From: Verrucomicrobiia bacterium
GTDB lineage: Bacteria > Verrucomicrobiota > Verrucomicrobiia > Limisphaerales > Fontisphaeraceae
Length of the DNA stretch: 45,787 nt
Assembly (NCBI GenBank): GCA_026414565.1
Contig: JAOAIT010000051.1
Coordinates: 1-45,787 of the forward strand
Reading direction: 5' to 3'
Of this stretch, positions 17,356 through 28,020 are shown one piece after another. The position numbers were made by a program, and so were the translations under genes. Each line of letters begins with the position of its first letter. The first letter of the stretch is position 1. The notes under the pieces are model-generated. The model was not told the origin of the DNA. It ran no database searches and saw only the letters and a program-made list of their open reading frames with translations.

Positions 17356-20343
17356 ATGCCATACACCGGCTGCAGGCGGGTGTTTTTTTTGCTGTGGCTG
17401 CTGGCGGGGCTGTGGGCGTGGCCCGCGCCGGCGGCGGGGCCATTTGCGGTGCGGGTGTGGGAGACGGATGACGGGCTGCCGCACAATACGGTGACGAGTC
17501 TGGCCACGACGGAGGATGGGTATTTGTGGGTGGGGACGCTGAACGGGCTGGCGCGGTTTGACGGGCTGACGTTCAGGGTGTTTGACGGGGAGAACACGCC
17601 GGAGCTGGAGGGGGGTCGGGTGGTATTTTTGCGGGCGGATCCGGCGGGCGGTTTGTGGATTGGGCTGGAGTCGGGCGCACTGGTGGAGTGGCGGCAGGGG
17701 AGATTCCACGTGGTGCCGGTGGGGCGGACGGCGCCGGAGCGGCGGCTGGTGGGGGCGGGGCGGGATGGGCAGGGGGCGGCGTGGTTTTACACGCGCACGG
17801 GGGAGCTGTGGCGGTGGCAGAATGAGGTGCTGACGCCCTATCTTTTTGCCTGGGGCCGTGAGGATGTGGCGCGTTTTCTGGTGGCGGAAACCAACGGGAC
17901 GGTGTGGGTAGGGGCCGCCGGGCGGGTGGCGTGGCTGGGGCCGCAAACGGGCAACAGCTCGCTGGAGCCGCGGGTGGCGGGGGAGGCGGCGGTGCAACAG
18001 CTTGATTTTCTGTGGCCCAGCCGGGGGGGCGGGTTGTGGCGGCTGGCGGATGGGCGGGTGACGTTCTGGCGCGGGGGCAAGCTGGAGCGCAACTGGGGGG
18101 CGTATCCGTGGCGCTCGGCGCCGGTGACGTCGGCGGCGGAGGACCGGCAGGGGCAGTTGGTGGTGGGGACCAAGGGGCTGGGGGTTTTCTGGTATCGGCC
18201 GGATGGTTCGGTGGCGTGGTTGAAACGGCAGGACGGATTGAACAATGAGACGGTGCTGGCGGTGTGCGTGGATCACGAGAACAATTTGTGGGTGGGCACC
18301 GACGGGGGGGGGCTGGCGCGGGTGCGGCGGCAGGGTTTCAGCACGCTGGAGAGCGCGGGGGTCTGGCCGGTGCAATCGGTGTGCGGGGATGGGGGCGAGG
18401 GGTTGTGGGCGGGATTCAACGGGATGGGGCTGCTGCATTGGACGCCGGGCGGGGCGCGGTTCTACGGGCGGCAGGAGGGTTTGACGCGGATGCAGGTGTG
18501 GTCTGTATTGCGCGATTCCCAGGGCCGGGTGTGGGCGGGGACGTACGGGGGCGGGCTGCTGGTGTGGCAGAGCAACCGTTTTGTGGCGGCGCCGCTGCCG
18601 GTCGAGGGGCCGGCGGTGGTCACGACGTTGTATGAGGATCGGCAGCGGCGTTTGTGGGTGGGGGGTCAGGGGGGGCTGGTGGTTTGGGACGGCCAGGCGG
18701 CGCGGCGTTACACGACGAATGAGGGTTTGTCTTCGGCGGTGATCACGGCGTTGGCGGAGGATGCGGAGGGGACGATGTACGCCGGCACGTATGGCGGGGG
18801 GCTGAATGTGTGGCGGGAGGGGCGGTGGAGCGCCGTGCGCAAAGGGCCCGCGGGATTGCCGGCGGACGAGATAGCTTTTCTGCACTGCGACAGCAGCAAT
18901 GTGCTGTGGGTGGGGACGGTGAGCAGCGGGCTGGCGCGGTGGGACGGCCGGCAATGGAGCCGGTTCACGGTGCGGGAGGGGCTGGCGGGCAATGCGGTGG
19001 CGTATCTGGTGGAGGATGAGCAGGGGTATTTTTGGATTGGCTCGAGTGTGGGATTGATGCGCATTGCCCGCCGCGATTTGAACGAGGTGGCCGCCGGGCG
19101 GTTGAAGGTGGCGCCGTGCCGGACGTATGCCAAGGCGGACGGGCTGCCCAGCCGGGAGTGCACCAGCGGGTCGCAGCCGGCGGCGTGGCGAGGCCCCGAC
19201 GGCCGGCTATGGTTTCCGACGACGCGGGGGCTGGCGGTGGTGAATCCGGCGCAGTTGCTGCCCAACACCCATCCGCCGCCGGTGCGGGTGGAGAAGGTGC
19301 TGGTGGACGGTCAGGCGGTGGCGGTGCCGGAGGGGGTTGGGCCGGTGGTGTTGCCGCCGCGCAAGAGCCGGGTGGAGATCCATTACGCCAGCCTCAACCT
19401 GGGCGCGCCGGAGCGCGCGCGATTCCGGTATCAACTGGAGGGGCATGATCCCGGGCCGGTGGAGGCGGGGGACAGCCGGGTGGCGCGGTATGTGGTGTGG
19501 CCGCCGGGGACGTATCGTTTTCGGGTGACGGCGTGCAATGAAGACGGGGTGTGGAATGTGGAGGGGGCGGCGCTGGCGCTGGTGGTGCCGCCGCCGTGGT
19601 GGCGGACGGTGTGGTTTGTCTCGCTGGCGGGCGGGGGGGCGGTGGTGACGCTGGTGCTGCTCATCCGGCATTTTTCGACGGTGCGGCTGCGGCGGCAGCT
19701 TGAGGGGCTGCGCCAGAAGGAGGCGCTGGAGAAGGAGCGGGCGCGGATTGCGCGGGATTTGCATGATCAACTGGGGGCCAATCTGACGCAGATCGCGCTG
19801 CTCAGCGAGATGGTGGAGGCGGACCGGGAGCAGCCGGAGGAGGTGGCGGGGCATGCGCGGCAGATAGCGCAGACGGCGCGGGAGACGACGCGGGGGCTGG
19901 ATGAGATTGTGTGGACGGTGAATCCGGCGAATGACACGGTGGAGGGTCTGGCCAATTATCTGTGCAAGTATGTGCACGATTATCTGACGGTGGCGGGGGT
20001 GCCGTGCCGGCTGGAGGTGCCGGCGGCCTTTCCGCCGGCCGCCATGGCGCCGGAGGTGCGGCATCATGTGTATATGACGGTGAAGGAGGCGGTGACCAAT
20101 GTGGTGCGCCATGCGCAGGCGCGGCAGGTGTGGTTTCGCATTCGCGTGGAGGAGGAGGCCACGCTGGTTATCGAATTGGAGGACGACGGGCGGGGATTGG
20201 ATTTGGAGCGGGTGAAGCAGACCAGCCGCAACGGTTTGAAAAACATGCAGAAACGCATGGCCGAGGCGCAGGGGCAGGTGGAGTTTCTGCCGCGCGCCGG
20301 GGGCGGGACGTGTGTGCGGTTGCGGTGCAGGATGGGGCCATGA
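17356..20343 (+). CDS. Two-component propeller-domain sensor histidine kinase
   Basis: A 995-residue membrane sensor. Signal peptide or N-terminal anchor (FFLLWLLAGLWAW) is followed by repeated 'LWVGT..GLARFDG' blades (about 30-640), the paired seven-blade two-component-regulator propellers that sense extracellular ligands, classically glycans in Bacteroidetes. Next come a Y_Y_Y-type Ig-like domain (about 655-740, ending RFRVTACNEDGVWN), a membrane helix (about 748-772), a HisKA_3 dimerisation domain with phospho-acceptor His803 in RIARDLHDQLGANLTQ, and a GHKL ATPase domain (VKEAVTNVVRHAQA, then the DDGRG box). HisKA_3 kinases normally pair with NarL/LuxR-type regulators, but none is encoded nearby and no receiver or HTH domain is fused. 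A hairpin terminator follows the stop. Confidence 0.92.
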   Translation: MPYTGCRRVFFLLWLLAGLWAWPAPAAGPFAVRVWETDDGLPHNTVTSLATTEDGYLWVGTLNGLARFDGLTFRVFDGENTPELEGGRVVFLRADPAGGLWIGLESGALVEWRQGRFHVVPVGRTAPERRLVGAGRDGQGAAWFYTRTGELWRWQNEVLTPYLFAWGREDVARFLVAETNGTVWVGAAGRVAWLGPQTGNSSLEPRVAGEAAVQQLDFLWPSRGGGLWRLADGRVTFWRGGKLERNWGAYPWRSAPVTSAAEDRQGQLVVGTKGLGVFWYRPDGSVAWLKRQDGLNNETVLAVCVDHENNLWVGTDGGGLARVRRQGFSTLESAGVWPVQSVCGDGGEGLWAGFNGMGLLHWTPGGARFYGRQEGLTRMQVWSVLRDSQGRVWAGTYGGGLLVWQSNRFVAAPLPVEGPAVVTTLYEDRQRRLWVGGQGGLVVWDGQAARRYTTNEGLSSAVITALAEDAEGTMYAGTYGGGLNVWREGRWSAVRKGPAGLPADEIAFLHCDSSNVLWVGTVSSGLARWDGRQWSRFTVREGLAGNAVAYLVEDEQGYFWIGSSVGLMRIARRDLNEVAAGRLKVAPCRTYAKADGLPSRECTSGSQPAAWRGPDGRLWFPTTRGLAVVNPAQLLPNTHPPPVRVEKVLVDGQAVAVPEGVGPVVLPPRKSRVEIHYASLNLGAPERARFRYQLEGHDPGPVEAGDSRVARYVVWPPGTYRFRVTACNEDGVWNVEGAALALVVPPPWWRTVWFVSLAGGGAVVTLVLLIRHFSTVRLRRQLEGLRQKEALEKERARIARDLHDQLGANLTQIALLSEMVEADREQPEEVAGHARQIAQTARETTRGLDEIVWTVNPANDTVEGLANYLCKYVHDYLTVAGVPCRLEVPAAFPPAAMAPEVRHHVYMTVKEAVTNVVRHAQARQVWFRIRVEEEATLVIELEDDGRGLDLERVKQTSRNGLKNMQKRMAEAQGQVEFLPRAGGGTCVRLRCRMGP

Positions 20344-20461: not shown

Positions 20462-23400
20462 TCAGGGTTGCGGGCGGGCGGCACGCGGGGGGTCTTCCGG
20501 CAGGGCGGCGAGGGTGGTTTCCCAGCCGCCGCCCAGGGCCTTGTACAAGGCGGCCAGGGCGGTGGCCAGGCGGGTGCGGGCCTGGGCGAGCTGGCTTTCG
20601 GCGGCGAGCTGGGTGCGCTGGGCGTCCAGGACGGTCAAATAATCGGCCACGCCGGCGCGGTAGCGTTCTTCGGCGAGGGCGCGGGCTTCCACCGCTGCGC
20701 GGGCGGCGGCGGCCAGGCGTGCTTCCCGCTCGCGGGCGCGGCTGACTTCCACGAGGGCGTTTTCGGTGTCTTCCAGGGCGGTGAGCACGGCCTTTTCGTA
20801 ATTGGCCAGCTCGGCGTCGGCGCGGGCGCCGGCGGCTTTGATGCGGGCGCGCACGCGGCCCAAGTCCAGGGCCGCCCAGGAGAGGCGCGGGCCGAAGGAG
20901 TAGGCATCGGCGCCGGGGCCGGTCAAGCCGGAGAGTTGATTGGCTTCGAGCGAGAGGCTGCCGATCCAGGTGACGCGGGGGAACAAGTCGGCGGTGGCGA
21001 GGCCGATGCGGGCGGTGGCGGCGGCGAGGGTGCGCTCGGCCATGCGGACATCGGGCCGGCGGCGCAGCAAGTCGGCGGGATTGCCCACGGGGACGAGCGC
21101 GGGCATGGGGGGCAGGGCGGCCGGGGGTGACAGCTCGGGTTCGAGGGCGGCCGGGGGTTGGGCGGTGAGGAGGCTGAGGCGGTGGATGGCGCGTTGGATG
21201 GAGGTTTCGAGGGCGGGGAGGAGGGCGAGGGTGCTTTCGTATTGGGATTCGGCGCGGCGGACGTCGAGGTCGGTGCCGCGGCCGGCGGCGACGCGGGCGC
21301 GGATCAGCTCGAGCGATTCGCGCTGGACTTCGGCATTGCGGCGGGCCACGGCGTATTCCTGCTGGGCGCCGCGGAGTTCAAAGTAATTGCGGGCGACTTC
21401 GGCCAGCACACTGAGGCCGACTGCCTGCCGGTAGGCTTCGGCGCCCTGGAGTTCGGCGGTGGCGGCCTCGACACTGCGGCGGACGCGGCCGAAGAGATCC
21501 ATCTCCCAGGTGGCGTCGAAGCCGGCGTCAAAAAGCTCGTATTCGCGCAGGTGGCGGGGGAGGCCGCCGGCGGCGTCCTGGCTGCGGGTGCCGCGGAGGT
21601 AACCGCCGTCGGCCCGGACGGTGGGGTAGAGGTCGAAGGTGGAGTGCTGGCGGAGGGCGCGGGCTTCGCGCACGCGGGCGGTGGCGGCGCGGAGGTCCAG
21701 GTTGGTGGCCAGGGCGGTTTGGACGAGGCGGGTGAGGGCGGGGTCCTGGAATTGGCGCCACCATTCGAGGGGGACGGGCTCGGCGGGGAAGGCGGCGTCG
21801 GCGTGACGGTAAGCGGGCGGGGTGGCGAGCTTGGGGGTATGGTAATTCGGCCCCACGGTGCAGCCGGTCAGCCCCAGGGCCAGCCCCAGGCCGATGATCC
21901 CGAGGGCCAGGCCGTGGCCGGCGGCAGGGGCGGCGGGCGAGGCGGGGTGGAAGTCGGCGGCCTTGCTTTTTTCGCCGGTCCAGCGGCGGATGACGACGTA
22001 GAACACCGGGGTGAGGAAGAGGCCGAAGAAGGTGACGCCGAGGGTGCCCCAGAAGGTGGCGGTGCCGATGGCCTGGCGGAGCTCGGCGCCGGCGCCGTTG
22101 GCGAGCATGAGCGGGAGGACGCCGAAGGCAAAGGCGAGCGAGGTCATGAGGATGGGGCGGAGGCGGAGGCGGCAGGCCTCGCGGGCGGCCTCGAAGCGGG
22201 TGAGATTGCGGTCCTGCAACTGGCGGGCGAATTCGACAATGAGGATGGCGTTTTTGCAGGCGAGGCCGATGAGGGTGACCATGCCGATCTGGGTGAAGAG
22301 GTTGTTTTCCAGGCCGCGGGCCCAGACGCCGAGGATGGCGAACAAGAGGGCCATGGGGGTGATGAGGATGATGGCCAGGGGGAGGGACCAGCTTTCATAT
22401 TGGGCGGCGAGCACCAGAAACACCATCAGGACGCAGAGCGGGAAGATGAGGATGGCCGAGCGGCCGGCCAACAATTCCAGGAGGCTCAATTCGGTCCATT
22501 CGATGGCCATGCCGGGGGGGAGGAGCTGGGCGGCCAGGCGGTTGAGGATCTGGATGGCGTCGCCGGAGCTGACGCCGGGGCGGGTGGCGCCGCTCAAATC
22601 GGCGCTGGGGAAGAGGTTGTAGTGGTTGATGAGGATGGGGCCGGTGGTGTCCTTGACGGTGATGACCGTGCCGAGGGGCACCATTTGGCCGGCGGCGTTG
22701 CGGACGCGCAATTCGGTGGCGTCCGAGGGGCGGGCGCGGAAGGGGGCGTCGGCCTGGGCGCGGACCTGGAAGGGGCGGCCGAAGAGGGTGAAGTCATTGA
22801 CGTAGAGGCCGCCGAGGTACACGGAGAGGGCCTGCCAGATTTCCTGGAGGGGCACCTGGAGGGTTTTGGCCTTTTCGCGGTCCACCTCCAGGAGCACCTG
22901 GGGCACCTGGGCGCGATAGGTGGTGAGCACGTTGGCCAGGCGGGGGTCTTGATTGGCGGCGGCCATGAGCTGGAAGGCGGCGGCCTGGAGGGCTTGCGGC
23001 CCGAGGTTGGCGCGATCCTGGATCTGGAGTTTGAAACCGCCCACCGAGCCGAGGCCGTCCACGGGGGGGAGGTTGAAGGCGGCGGCGAAGCCTTCGTGGA
23101 TGGAGGCCAGTTTGGGGCGGAGCTGGGCCAGGATTTTATCGGCGGTGAGGCCGGATTGCTGGCGTTGGGCGTAGGATTGCAGGCGGACGATGAGGGTGGA
23201 GGCGTTGGGCTGGCTGCCGAAGTTGAGGAAGGAGAAGCCGTCGAGCTTGATGACGGCCTCGACGCCGGGGGTTTGGCGGACCAGTTGATGCAATTTTTCG
23301 CTGACGACGGCGGTGCGCTCCTTGGAGGCGCCGTCGGGGAGTTGGAGGTAGCAGATCAAGGTGCCTTTGTCCTGCTGGGGGATGAAGCCACGGGGGGTGG

Positions 23401-25096
23401 CGAGGAAGCCGAGGTAGGTGAGGGCGAGCAGGCCGCCGTAGAGGAAGAGGGCGATGACGCCGTGGCGGATGACGAGGCTCAGGCCGCCGAGATATTTTTG
23501 GCGGAGGTTTTCAAAGAGGCGGTTGAAGCCCTTGAAGAACCAGCCGAGGGTGAGGTCGAGGAAACGGCTGAAGCGATCGGTGCGGGCGCCGTGGGGCTGG
23601 AGGAGGAGGGCGCACAGGGCGGGGCTGAGGGTGAGGGCGTTGAAGGCGGAGATGAGGGTGGAGACGGCGATGGTGAGGGCGAATTGTTGATAGAACTTGC
23701 CCTGGATGCCCGGGAGGAAGGCGGTGGGGACAAAGACGGCGCTGAGCACGAGGGCGATGGCCACGACGGCGCCGCTGATTTCGTCCATGGCGATGCGGGT
23801 GGCGGTGACGGGGTCTTTGCCTTCGGCGATGTGGCGCTCGACGTTTTCGACGACGACGATGGCATCGTCCACGACGATGCCGATGGCGAGGACGAGGCCG
23901 AAGAGGGTGAGGTTGTTGATGCTGAAGCCGAGGGCGGCCATGACGGCGAAGGTGCCGATGAGGGAGACGGGGACGGCGATCAGGGGGATGAGGGAGGCCC
24001 GCCAGGTTTGGAGGAAGAGGACCACGACGAGGGTGACCAGGATCATGGCCTCCAGGAGCGTTTGAAAGACCTCGTGGATGGAGGCGCGGATGTATTCGGA
24101 GTCATCGCGGGGGATGCGGTACTCGAGGCCCTTGGGGAAGCGGCGGCTCAGCTCGGCCATGGCTTTGCGGACGGCGTCGGCGGTTTCGATGGTGTTGGAG
24201 CCGGGGAGTTGGAAGACGGCCATGGCGACCATGGGGGTGCCGTCGAGGTAGCTGTCGAGGCTGTAATCGCGGGCGCCCAGCTCCACGCGGGCCACGTCCT
24301 TGAGGCGGAGCAGGCGGCCGTCGGCGTCGGTGCGGAGGATGATCTGCTCGAATTCCTGTTCGGAGGCGAGGCGGCCGCGGACCAGGGCGACCAGTTGCAT
24401 GGGGGTGCCTTTGGGGGCGGGGGACTGGCCGAAGACGCCGCCGGCGACCTCGACGTTTTGCTCGCGGATGGCGGCGATGACGTCGCCGGCGGTCAGGTGG
24501 CGGGCGGCGAGTTTGGCGGGGTCGAGCCAGATGCGCATGCTGTACTCGCGGGTGCCGAAGATGAAGACATCGCCGACGCCGGGGAGGCGGGCGAGGACGT
24601 CTTTGACCTGGAGGTAGGCGTAGTTGCTGAGGAAGATGTCATCGAAGGTGCCGTCGGGGGAGATGAGGGTGACGACCATGGTCATGTTGGGGGAGCGTTT
24701 GCGGACGTCCACGCCCAGGCGGCGGACTTCCTCGGGGAGGCGGGGGAGGGCGCTTTGGACGCGGTTTTGGACCTGGACCTGGGCCTTGTCAATGTCGGTG
24801 CCGACCTTGAAGGTGACCTGGATGGACATGGAGCCGTCGGCGGCGCAGGAGGAGGAGAGGTAGAGCATGTTTTCGACGCCGTTGATTTCCTGCTCGAGGG
24901 GGGTGGCGACGGTGTCGGCGACGGTTTGGGCGTTGGCGCCGGGGTACTGGGCGCGCACGAAGATGGTGGGGGGCGTGATTTCCGGGAATGAGGCGATGGG
25001 CAGGCGCCACAGGGCCAGCAGCCCCACCAGGGTGATGAAGATGGAGAGGACCGATGCAAAGATCGGCCGGCGGATGAAGAAATGCGAAAATTTCAT
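20462..25096 (-). CDS. Fused RND (HAE1) efflux pump and outer-membrane factor lipoprotein
   Basis: One uninterrupted 1544-residue frame. Residues 1 to ~1045 are a proton-driven AcrB/MexB-type pump: MKFSHFFIRRPIFASVLS start, TM4 GIVVDDAIVVVEN with the paired proton-relay Asp, and TM10 LACKNAILIVEFA with the relay Lys. After a ~20-residue Ala/Pro linker comes a hydrophobic stretch with a lipobox (LGLTGC, Cys1079), followed by a complete NodT/OprM-type outer-membrane factor (GPNYHTP, then the two repeated coiled-coil/barrel halves, about 466 residues). No ATG, GTG or TTG codon lies between the last pump helix and Cys1079. Good ribosome site GGAGG five bases before the ATG. The adaptor gene is 34 bases upstream; TetR heads the operon. 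Substrate unknown. Confidence 0.9.
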   Translation of the reverse strand: MKFSHFFIRRPIFASVLSIFITLVGLLALWRLPIASFPEITPPTIFVRAQYPGANAQTVADTVATPLEQEINGVENMLYLSSSCAADGSMSIQVTFKVGTDIDKAQVQVQNRVQSALPRLPEEVRRLGVDVRKRSPNMTMVVTLISPDGTFDDIFLSNYAYLQVKDVLARLPGVGDVFIFGTREYSMRIWLDPAKLAARHLTAGDVIAAIREQNVEVAGGVFGQSPAPKGTPMQLVALVRGRLASEQEFEQIILRTDADGRLLRLKDVARVELGARDYSLDSYLDGTPMVAMAVFQLPGSNTIETADAVRKAMAELSRRFPKGLEYRIPRDDSEYIRASIHEVFQTLLEAMILVTLVVVLFLQTWRASLIPLIAVPVSLIGTFAVMAALGFSINNLTLFGLVLAIGIVVDDAIVVVENVERHIAEGKDPVTATRIAMDEISGAVVAIALVLSAVFVPTAFLPGIQGKFYQQFALTIAVSTLISAFNALTLSPALCALLLQPHGARTDRFSRFLDLTLGWFFKGFNRLFENLRQKYLGGLSLVIRHGVIALFLYGGLLALTYLGFLATPRGFIPQQDKGTLICYLQLPDGASKERTAVVSEKLHQLVRQTPGVEAVIKLDGFSFLNFGSQPNASTLIVRLQSYAQRQQSGLTADKILAQLRPKLASIHEGFAAAFNLPPVDGLGSVGGFKLQIQDRANLGPQALQAAAFQLMAAANQDPRLANVLTTYRAQVPQVLLEVDREKAKTLQVPLQEIWQALSVYLGGLYVNDFTLFGRPFQVRAQADAPFRARPSDATELRVRNAAGQMVPLGTVITVKDTTGPILINHYNLFPSADLSGATRPGVSSGDAIQILNRLAAQLLPPGMAIEWTELSLLELLAGRSAILIFPLCVLMVFLVLAAQYESWSLPLAIILITPMALLFAILGVWARGLENNLFTQIGMVTLIGLACKNAILIVEFARQLQDRNLTRFEAAREACRLRLRPILMTSLAFAFGVLPLMLANGAGAELRQAIGTATFWGTLGVTFFGLFLTPVFYVVIRRWTGEKSKAADFHPASPAAPAAGHGLALGIIGLGLALGLTGCTVGPNYHTPKLATPPAYRHADAAFPAEPVPLEWWRQFQDPALTRLVQTALATNLDLRAATARVREARALRQHSTFDLYPTVRADGGYLRGTRSQDAAGGLPRHLREYELFDAGFDATWEMDLFGRVRRSVEAATAELQGAEAYRQAVGLSVLAEVARNYFELRGAQQEYAVARRNAEVQRESLELIRARVAAGRGTDLDVRRAESQYESTLALLPALETSIQRAIHRLSLLTAQPPAALEPELSPPAALPPMPALVPVGNPADLLRRRPDVRMAERTLAAATARIGLATADLFPRVTWIGSLSLEANQLSGLTGPGADAYSFGPRLSWAALDLGRVRARIKAAGARADAELANYEKAVLTALEDTENALVEVSRAREREARLAAAARAAVEARALAEERYRAGVADYLTVLDAQRTQLAAESQLAQARTRLATALAALYKALGGGWETTLAALPEDPPRAARPQP

Positions 25097-25130
25097 GGTG
25101 GCCTCCAGAAGACAGCACTCAGGACAACAT

Positions 25131-26444
25131 TCAGGCCTTGCCGGCGGGCGGTTTGGCGGCGGGGGCGTTGGTGGGGGCGGCGGGCGGCTGGCCCGGCACT
25201 CCCACCTGGACTTTCATGCCCGGGCGCAACATGAGCAGGCCGCTGACGACGACGGAATCGTCGGGGGTCAAGCCGCTCAGGATGACGCGCTGCAAGCCCT
25301 GGGGGCGTCCGAGCACGACGGGGCGGGGCTGGACGGTTTGGTCCGGGCCGAGGACATAGACAAATTTGCGGGTTTGCTCGGCGAGGATGGCGCCTTCGGG
25401 GATGAGGAGGGCTTTTTCGAGCCGTTCCACCGGCAGGCGCAGGCGGGCGAAGGCGCCCGGCACGAGGGCGCGGTCGGTGTTGGCAAACACGGCGCGCAGG
25501 CGGAGGGTGCCGGTGGCGGGGGTGAGTTGATTGTCCAGGAAATCCACCTGGCCGTGATGGAGGAAATCCGGCTCGCCATCCAGGCGCGCCTCGCACGGCA
25601 GGGCGGGGACGCCGGCGGCGCCGGCCAGGGCGAGGCCGGCCTTGCGATATTGGAAATAGGCGCGTTCGCTCACATCGAAGCAGGCGTAAATGGGCGAGTG
25701 GGTGACGAGCGTGACGAGGACGGTGCCCGGCGCCTGGCCGCCGCCCTGGACGAGGTTGCCCACGGTGACGAGGCGCCGGCCGACGCGGCCGGCAATGGGG
25801 GCGGTGACGCGGGTGTAGTCGAGATTGAGTTGGGCGGTTTTGATGGCGGCCTCGGCGGCGGCCACGGCGGCTTCGGCGGCGGCCACGGCGGCCTGGGCGG
25901 CCTGGAGGGCGGCCTCGGCTTCGCGGACGGCCTTGGTGCGGAGGTCCAGTTCCTCCTCGGAGATGGCGCGGGCCTGCTGGAGGCGGGTGGCGCGCTGGAG
26001 GTCGTTGCGGGCCAGCTCGAGGCGGGTGAGGATTTGTTGTTGCTGGGCTTTGGCCTGCTCCACGCCGGCCTGGGCGCGGAGGCGTTCGGCCTGGGCGCGG
26101 GCGAGGTCGGCGGCGAAGGGGCGGGGATCAATGATTACGAGGAGGTCGCCGGCCTTGACTTCGGCGCCGTCGGTGAAATGGATGGACTCGATGTAGCCGG
26201 AGACGCGGGCGCGGACTTCCACGGCTTCCACGGCCTCGAAGCGGGCGGGGTATTCATCGTAATTGGTGATGGCGGTCAGGATTGGCCGGGCGACGCTGAC
26301 GAGGGGCGTGAGGCCCTGGGGCGCGCCGGGCGGGGTTTTGGGGCGGCAGGCGGAGGCCAGCCCCAGGGCGGTGAGGAGCGCGAGCAAGGGGGTTGCGACG
26401 CGGGTTGAACGGTGGTTATACCAAACGGTAGTACGGGTTTGCAT
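25131..26444 (-). CDS. RND efflux periplasmic adaptor lipoprotein (MFP/HlyD family)
   Basis: Membrane-fusion protein that bridges the inner-membrane pump and the outer-membrane channel. The 437-residue protein has a lipoprotein signal (LLALLTALGLASAC, lipid-carrying Cys after residue 30) and a barrel-sandwich/lipoyl half VRARVSGYIESIHFTDGAEVKAGDLL. A long Ala/Glu/Arg-rich coiled coil (about 100-200), the second lipoyl half (RVTAPIAGRVGRRLVTVGNLV) and a beta-barrel/membrane-proximal region end in a Pro/Ala-rich tail. The start at 26444 has GGAGAAAG eight bases upstream; the frame is open upstream without homology. It sits between tetR and the pump gene, in normal acrA-acrB order. Confidence 0.93.
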   Translation of the reverse strand: MQTRTTVWYNHRSTRVATPLLALLTALGLASACRPKTPPGAPQGLTPLVSVARPILTAITNYDEYPARFEAVEAVEVRARVSGYIESIHFTDGAEVKAGDLLVIIDPRPFAADLARAQAERLRAQAGVEQAKAQQQQILTRLELARNDLQRATRLQQARAISEEELDLRTKAVREAEAALQAAQAAVAAAEAAVAAAEAAIKTAQLNLDYTRVTAPIAGRVGRRLVTVGNLVQGGGQAPGTVLVTLVTHSPIYACFDVSERAYFQYRKAGLALAGAAGVPALPCEARLDGEPDFLHHGQVDFLDNQLTPATGTLRLRAVFANTDRALVPGAFARLRLPVERLEKALLIPEGAILAEQTRKFVYVLGPDQTVQPRPVVLGRPQGLQRVILSGLTPDDSVVVSGLLMLRPGMKVQVGVPGQPPAAPTNAPAAKPPAGKA

Positions 26445-27159: not shown

Positions 27160-27172
27160 ACCTAACGTTTGT

Positions 27173-27190
27173 TTATAACGTTCGTTATAA
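27173..27190 (-). promoter_or_regulatory. Palindromic TetR operator
   Basis: TTATAACGTTCGTTATAA: perfect 8-bp arms around a 2-base spacer, AT-rich in a GC-rich genome. It abuts the tetR -10 box and covers the expected start point, 13 bases before the ATG. A partial second copy (AACGTTTGTTTATAACG) runs into it on the gene side, so two dimers might bind. Confidence 0.8.
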
Positions 27191-27219
27191 TTCATACCGC
27201 ATGGGGCGGGGGTGTGCAA
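27191..27219 (-). promoter_or_regulatory. Promoter of the tetR-efflux operon
   Basis: Minus strand: TTGCAC (27219-27214), exactly 17 bases, TATGAA (27196-27191). The operator begins at the next base, so a bound repressor would block polymerase at the start site. Confidence 0.6.
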
Positions 27220-27318
27220 GCACTTTTTTTCTTTTTTAAGATTGCCCGCGCCGCCGCCGCAGGGCATGAAAGGCGGCGCGCGGGGCGACGCGGTGCAGCG
27301 GGCGCGCCGTCATGGACC

Positions 27319-28020
27319 ATGAAATTGTGTTTGCTGGGATTGCCGGAGATCAAACCGGGCAGGATTAACATCAAAGATGCGCGGCTGGACGAGGCCGATC
27401 GGCTGGTCGAGGCCAAGAAGAAGACCTATGCCCAGGTGGAGGCGGTGGGGGAGGAGGGGCTGGCGACGGCGGAGGCGGTGCTGACGACGGCGGAGGGGCG
27501 GGCGGATTTGATTTTGCGGGATTTGGAGCTGGTGGAGACGCGGCTGGCGCGCGGCCCGGGGGAGGCGGAGGGGCGGGTGCTGGAGAAATTGAAGGGATTG
27601 TTGGAGGGCGAGATTTTGCTGCGGCAGGCCGGGCTGGCGGCGGAGGAATGGCAGGCGGTGCAGGCGCATCAGTTTCTGACGCAGAAACCGGTGATTGTGG
27701 CGAGCGAGGCGGAGCGTCAGGATCCCGAGGCCTTGATCGTGCGGGCCGTGCGCGAGGGGGGTTATATCAGCTTTCTGACGGTGGGGGGCAAGGAGAATCG
27801 GGCGTGGTTGATCCGGGAGGGGATTACGGCGTGGGAGGCGGCGGGGGTGATCCACAGCGACATTCAGAAGGGGTTCATCCGGGCGGAGATCATCAGTTAC
27901 GCCGATTTCATTGCGGCCGGGGGGGAGACGGAGGCCAAGCGGGCGGGCAAACTGCGGCTGGAGACCAAGACGTACGTGATGCAGGACTACGATCTGGTCA
28001 ACTTCCGCTTCAACAAATAG
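27319..28020 (+). CDS. YchF-like protein lacking the GTPase core (DUF933/TGS C-terminus)
   Basis: The last ~70 residues are unmistakably the YchF/OLA1 TGS (DUF933) domain: NRAWLIREGITAWEAAGVIHSD, FIRAEIISYADF, AKRAGKLRLETK and a final VNFRFNK. The middle (about 55-145) matches the helical insert of YchF (VLEKLKGLLEGE, then SAEEK-like LAAEEWQAVQAHQFLTQKP). The start MKLCLLGLPEIKPGR imitates YchF beta-strand 1 but has no GxxGxGKS/T P-loop, and the G2-G3 region is missing; the protein is 233 residues against ~363. It therefore should not bind ATP/GTP in the YchF way. Clean frame and intact end suggest a maintained gene, not a fragment. Function unknown; a ribosome link via TGS is only a guess. 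gspE follows 73 bases later. Confidence 0.8.
   Translation: MKLCLLGLPEIKPGRINIKDARLDEADRLVEAKKKTYAQVEAVGEEGLATAEAVLTTAEGRADLILRDLELVETRLARGPGEAEGRVLEKLKGLLEGEILLRQAGLAAEEWQAVQAHQFLTQKPVIVASEAERQDPEALIVRAVREGGYISFLTVGGKENRAWLIREGITAWEAAGVIHSDIQKGFIRAEIISYADFIAAGGETEAKRAGKLRLETKTYVMQDYDLVNFRFNK

Follow-up and report, generated by a model that had tools for sequence, protein, structure and literature searches.

An RND Permease and an Outer-Membrane Factor Encoded in One Open Frame in Verrucomicrobiota, with a Putative Internal Signal Peptide at the Join

In the window (the whole stretch of DNA analyzed here, 45,787 nucleotides), a single gene encodes two of the three components of a tripartite efflux system resembling MexEF-OprN, namely the RND permease and the outer-membrane factor (OMF). 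In the usual picture of a tripartite pump, three parts, each with a gene of its own, have to come together across two membranes; here two of the three, bound for different membranes, are joined in a single chain, and this in many members of a single phylum. Judging from the sequence, we consider it quite probable that this chain is a polyprotein precursor that would be cut at an internal signal peptide, by signal peptidase II in the case of the window. The pump family is ordinary, and the gene architecture is the new element. Beyond what a preliminary description of this DNA had covered, the join proves to be common in the order, to be present in some relatives and absent from others, and to carry two kinds of putative cut site.

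A Full Permease and a Full OMF in One Frame

The fused gene runs on the minus strand, which the preliminary description had left unstated, from an ATG at 25096 to a TGA at 20464-20462, totaling 1544 codons (table 1). That description had claimed one frame holding a full HAE1 pump, a linker, a lipobox at Cys1079, and a full NodT-type OMF, and profile matches above cut-off confirm this layout. In the pump half, TIGR00915 matched residues 3-1048 with 1197.5 bits against a cut-off of 940.35, which identifies a full-length HAE1 permease, and the NCBIfam profile NF000282 (RND_permease_1) matched residues 4-1038 with 1396.5 bits (cut-off 1250). Pfam placed ACR_tran at residues 3-1037 (E 0, 1144 bits), and the OqxB profile reached 1192 bits, under its cut-off of 2200. 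Comparison with solved structures returned RND pumps for this half, the best at 1193 bits. The residues that matter for proton relay, which we take to be the two Asp of TM4, the Lys of TM10, and the Arg of TM11, are accounted for by the motifs IVVDDAIVVVENVER, LACKNAILIVEFAR, and RLRPILMTSLAF, visible in the pump translation.

The OMF half was identified with equal completeness by TIGR01845 (outer_NodT), which matched residues 1072-1524 with 356.4 bits against a cut-off of 210.05 and was covered from position 3 to 460 of 460, and by Pfam OEP in two stretches (172 bits). Its best match among solved structures was OprN (341 bits, OprN residues 1 to 446), an alignment in which Cys1079 falls on residue 1 of mature OprN. 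Foldseek likewise retrieved OprN (5azp) as the best hit, with an E of 6e-20, from an AlphaFold model with a mean pLDDT of 69.7. This half has no ATG, GTG, or TTG start of its own; its signal stretch is present but internal. With both halves above their family cut-offs and 75 distinct proteins showing the same uninterrupted join, the fusion is beyond chance.

Table 1. Features of the fused gene and its upstream neighbors in the window
Feature	Coordinates	Strand	Basis or remark
Single gene, RND-OMF fusion, 1544 aa, TGA stop	20462..25096	minus	ORF and profile matches
RND permease half, residues 1-1040, HAE1 (NF000282 / TIGR00915)	21977..25096	minus	Profile and structure matches
Linker, residues 1041-1078 (38 residues): polar Ala/Pro-rich stretch, then hydrophobic stretch	21863..21976	minus	
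OMF half, residues 1079-1544, TIGR01845, OprN-like	20465..21862	minus	Profile, OprN alignment, Foldseek
Hydrophobic GLALGIIGLGLALGL (residues 1062-1076), putative core of an internal signal peptide, as a 13th membrane segment	21869..21913	minus	
Lipobox LTGC at residues 1076-1079 (within GLTGC), predicted cleavage just ahead of Cys1079	21860..21871	minus	Aligns with mature OprN residue 1
Nearest start-like codon, GTG, residue 1031, inside last pump helix	22004..22006	minus	Without Shine-Dalgarno-like match
GGAGG resembling a Shine-Dalgarno site, 5 bases ahead of the fused gene's ATG	25102..25106	minus	
Separate periplasmic adaptor gene, RND_mfp, MexE-like, lipobox-like start	25131..26444	minus	34 bases upstream of fused gene
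TetR-family regulator (TetR_N, TetR_C_30), upstream of adaptor, candidate start codon	26494..27267	minus	Pfam/NCBIfam

Substitution rates were estimated by simple NG86 and are rough, since dS was often near or above 1. Between the window and the same-genus genome G001 (dS near 1), dN/dS amounted to 0.027 in the pump, 0.25 in the linker (38 codons), and 0.082 in the OMF; six more pairs gave at most 0.17 in the pump and at most 0.21 in the OMF, with linkers ranging from 0.08 to 0.61 and one undefined.

Recurrence of the Fusion in Related Genomes

The preliminary description had proposed a search of related genomes for the same fusion, and there it was found. A search of 320 genomes of the order (E up to 1e-120) matched 72, among which 57 gave a match without a stop from the end of the pump through the OMF, all 57 being confirmed on fetched DNA. 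Three more (G505, G013, and G017), in which a contig end truncated the match or the search reported a stop, proved to be fused on inspection, so that at least 60 of the 320 genomes are carriers. The remaining 12 of the 72 matches were left uncounted as fused: six were inspected and hold separate genes (G487, G651, G056, G010, G023, and G051), and in the six others (G478, G484, G510, G692, G461, and G657) the match begins at or near the OMF side. Outside the order and within the same phylum, at least 14 genomes of a 387-genome sample, counted from the matches listed, carry the fusion on fetched DNA, and four genomes of this sample in which the search had flagged a stop (G247, G191, G285, and G061) have separate genes. 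Long frames in G028, G012, G244, and G301, candidates for additional fusions, turned out on checking to be something else. Altogether 75 distinct fused proteins were verified, comprising 29 sequences, 46 of 48 fetched loci, and two contig-edge pieces, less two duplicates.

This distribution makes it extremely improbable that an assembly or sequencing error removed a stop codon or a frameshift between two ordinary genes. Such an error would be in keeping with a window genome in 71 contigs, with the fragmentation of many carriers, and with the existence of unfused relatives, but the same fusion stands at 94% identity in the single-contig genome G001 of the same genus, and again in the single-contig genomes G138, G140, and G243, besides recurring in at least 60 of the 320 genomes of the order.

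Reach beyond Verrucomicrobiota was assessed on candidate loci, the best 80 out of 245, and on plasmid listings of 40 and 60 rows. None of the fused loci among those 80 was titled as belonging to another phylum. The best 40 of at least 5000 plasmid relatives bore names such as mexF, oprN, adeF, and adeH, and those with both parts annotated had them as separate features. The second plasmid listing, aimed at CzcA fusions of Bacteroidota, contained no Bacteroidota organism among its 60 rows.

Gain and Loss of the Fused State

The stability of the join was followed on a quick tree of the RND half with 73 rows, 29 fused and 44 separate. Separate rows were thinned at 80% identity among themselves and those under 50% to every fused row were excluded; L186, L027, and L055, whose frames run to or near a contig end, were left out, and L203 was added. 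The tree implies eight changes between the fused and the separate state, seven of them forced by starred branches, with gain and loss indistinguishable from the counts and with the caveat that clades C and D are joined by their long branches. The eleven rows of clade C are all fused (support 100). Separate genes are placed inside clade A in L203 (G651) and in L016 (G010; also L179), the pump of which is 87% identical to that of the fused L042, as well as in clade B in L024, whose OMF gene has its own ATG and lipobox, and in clade D in L162 and L163. By this sequence-based reckoning, fusion events, fission events, or a mixture of the two have occurred repeatedly among relatives. The nesting of L016 and L203 in clade A could reflect either fission or repeated fusion, and some fusions may be young, given the separate-gene relatives inside clades A, B, and D.

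Close relatives with a stop between the halves had been named beforehand as the observation that would speak against a genuine fusion. The window's own group (L001, L009, L010, L011, L012, and L041; support 100) is wholly fused, and a lost stop in this assembly is thus not the explanation; at the level of the wider clade A the expectation of an unbroken join does not hold, as L016 and L203 illustrate.

Two further loci were noted along these trees. In the unfused L201 (G487:C6:18581-20497), the stop codon of the pump is followed directly by the in-frame ATG of the OMF gene, possibly representing the state just before or after fusion. The pump half of L119 / L147 (G278) grouped with clade D on the RND trees, and a larger fused-only tree, which includes the OMF half and carries a long-branch warning, placed L119 with the window's clade A; either the OMF half was exchanged between fused lineages or the placement is an artefact.

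Start Codons at the Join

A codon scan of the window gene found no in-frame ATG, GTG, or TTG at residues 1032-1078, in agreement with the earlier reading of every codon from the end of the last pump helix to Cys1079. The nearest such codons before Cys1079 are the GTG of residue 1031, which lies within the pump helix, and an ATG at residue 997, and the claim that the window has no ordinary internal start is thereby upheld. Across 29 fused linkers, scanned for ATG, GTG, and TTG at -40 to -15, 13 had none of the three. Matches resembling a Shine-Dalgarno sequence accompanied 3 of 28 internal start-like codons versus 14 of 25 gene starts (the 29 minus 4 without a clear start near the expected place).

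These counts bear on the possibility that the OMF half is a translation product in its own right, initiated at an unusual internal codon (CTG or other) or through re-initiation, in which case the long frame would be incidental and two free proteins would result. A few linkers do offer suitable codons near the hydrophobic stretch (an ATG at -16 in L009 and L155, a TTG at -15 with GGAG in L042, and an ATG at -29 with AAGG in L159), and the separate genes near or inside fused clades imply that separate translation works in this RND-OMF family. We nonetheless regard this possibility as quite unlikely, both for the window, with no ATG, GTG, or TTG at residues 1032-1078, and for the fused linkers at large, given how many lack a start-like codon and how seldom the existing ones are preceded by a Shine-Dalgarno-like match.

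Linker and Putative Cut Sites

In the window protein, the last pump helix gives way to GEKSKAADFHPASPAAPAAGH, which leads through GLALGIIGLGLALGL into TGC. The LTGC satisfies the strict lipobox pattern of PROSITE, and the net charge ahead of the hydrophobic stretch is 0, a feature that counts against the cutting model. A hydrophobic stretch is present in all 75 fused linkers; in 77 rows, including 2 duplicates, its best 12-residue mean hydrophobicity is at least 1.96 and the charge preceding it ranges from 0 to +6 (median +3). Internal signal peptide and signal peptidase II had been proposed in the preliminary description, and on sequence grounds this mechanism emerges as the best supported, insofar as the linkers of the 75 distinct proteins end in a lipobox-like Cys in 34 cases and, in 40 of the other 41, in an A-x-A-like site ([AVSTLI]-x-A), the last one having A-R-G. 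Both patterns were somewhat looser than those of PROSITE. With duplicates removed, 28 of the 34 lipobox-like sites fit the strict pattern, and L042, L158, L159, L184, L199, and L200 miss it. Asp following the lipobox Cys, the inner-membrane retention signal of Escherichia coli, occurs in 0 of 36 rows.

Of the 40 A-x-A-type linkers, 38 place an Ala five columns ahead of the V-G-P anchor, and L019 and L225 have their A-x-A nearer to this anchor than the rest. A strict A-x-A was present in 29 of 41 linkers versus 10.4 expected, with a maximum of 20 in 2000 linker shuffles, a pattern that was picked after viewing the rows; 11 of the 40 sites of the signal peptidase I type are other than strict A-x-A. 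All this stands within a linker that changes fast, its identity being 31-91% in seven pairs whose pumps share 81-97% and whose OMFs share 59-88%, and in a 7-row alignment of the window clade only R2, A38, and C44 are invariant linker columns. The helix of the hydrophobic stretch had a pLDDT under 50 in an AlphaFold model of residues 1036-1544 built with 7 alignment rows, too low for the model to inform on the linker.

The Cys/Ala pattern at the join speaks for cutting, because a plain membrane anchor needs neither Cys nor Ala there. Ancestry accounts for part of this pattern, since free relatives of the OMF carry the same two kinds of site (signal peptidase I-like in L118 and L064, lipobox in L016, L024, L122, and others), and the inherited share would be larger where a fusion is young. 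Site type also differs inside clade B (41 and 3 rows on the fused-only tree), a change that need not date from the fused state, given the separate-gene relatives inside clades A, B, and D.

Proposed Route from One Chain to Two Proteins

A cytoplasmic C-terminus is established for the RND pump family. The 12 pump helices of the fused protein would accordingly insert so that the pump ends in the cytoplasm, and the hydrophobic stretch would come next as segment thirteen, in the N-in/C-out orientation of an ordinary signal peptide, leading to export of the OMF half. Lgt and signal peptidase II would then modify and cut the chain at Cys1079, freeing a lipoprotein OMF of 466 residues that the Lol route could take to the outer membrane, while the permease would keep one extra helix. 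The genome of the window encodes LspA, Lgt, and LolA, each with a match above cut-off. In most of clade B, cleavage would instead fall to signal peptidase I, acting on an A-x-A motif. Permease and OMF would thereby arise 1:1 from one message and presumably assemble in that ratio, the adaptor being supplied by the gene just upstream, and the complex would presumably act as a multidrug pump. Should the internal lipobox be cut, the lipoprotein pathway would accept a signal sequence placed after twelve membrane helices, and the fused genes would offer a natural 1:1 system for pump-channel assembly, with unfused close relatives as controls.

Were the chain to stay uncut, one polypeptide would be anchored in the inner membrane and form the outer-membrane channel as well. 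The single open frame in every fused case accords with this arrangement, in which the hydrophobic stretch might be no more than a 13th helix. According to PMC8277102, a palmitate fixes the N-terminus of OprM in the outer membrane and an OMF is ~140 A long. The position of Cys1079 corresponds to that anchored end, and by homology an uncut chain should therefore not fit, as the residue directly beside an inner-membrane helix would also be required at the outer membrane. Together with the Cys and Ala kept by the linkers, this leads us to consider an uncut chain very unlikely.

A variant of the precursor reading, which we rate as unlikely, is that cutting is slow or conditional. Pump and channel would then be tethered during assembly, with the signal peptidase serving as a checkpoint and releasing the channel only after pump and channel have joined their adaptor, and the repeated gain and loss of the join in the phylum would reflect selection for assembly in cis instead of mere stop loss.

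Relation to Known Systems

MexEF-OprN of Pseudomonas aeruginosa and the AdeFGH-type pumps share their RND and OMF families with the window, and the gene order adaptor-permease-OMF is the same. Permease and OMF are separate genes in those systems, whereas in the window one frame continues through the signal stretch of the OMF. CusA/CzcA-type pumps of Bacteroidota are known with a C-terminal OMF fused to the RND permease; these fusions belong to the heavy-metal (HME) family, unlike the HAE1 pump described here. For the mode of cutting, the closest precedent is presumably FbcH, the cytochrome b-c1 polyprotein of Bradyrhizobium, in which a polytopic inner-membrane protein and an exported partner are cut apart at an internal signal peptide. 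FbcH involves unrelated proteins, signal peptidase I, and a partner that stays at the inner membrane, whereas the partner in the window would travel to the outer membrane from a lipobox site. Titles and opening lines of abstracts in the open-access literature yielded no description of a natural RND-OMF fusion; the combination may already be catalogued in domain-architecture databases.

Genomic Neighborhood of the Fused Gene

The adaptor encoded next to the fused gene matched RND_mfp (TIGR01730) with 249 bits versus a cut-off of 94.9, and an adaptor lies just upstream in 27 of 29 fused loci, the contig ending in the other two. On the opposite side, a convergent sensor kinase gene (17356-20343, plus strand) with Reg_prop, Y_Y_Y, HisKA_3, and HATPase domains ends 118 bases from the end of the fused gene.

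Beyond the regulator gene, positions 27169-28020 (plus strand) encode a YchF-like protein in which Pfam detects only the C-terminal domain PF06071. A P-loop is expected in the YchF GTPase; the likely start here, MKLCLLGLPEIKPGR, is without one, and from its sequence the product looks like a GTPase-less relative of YchF. Finally, an open frame of 1277 aa runs antisense to the fused gene (21158-24991, plus strand), probably as an effect of high G+C content.
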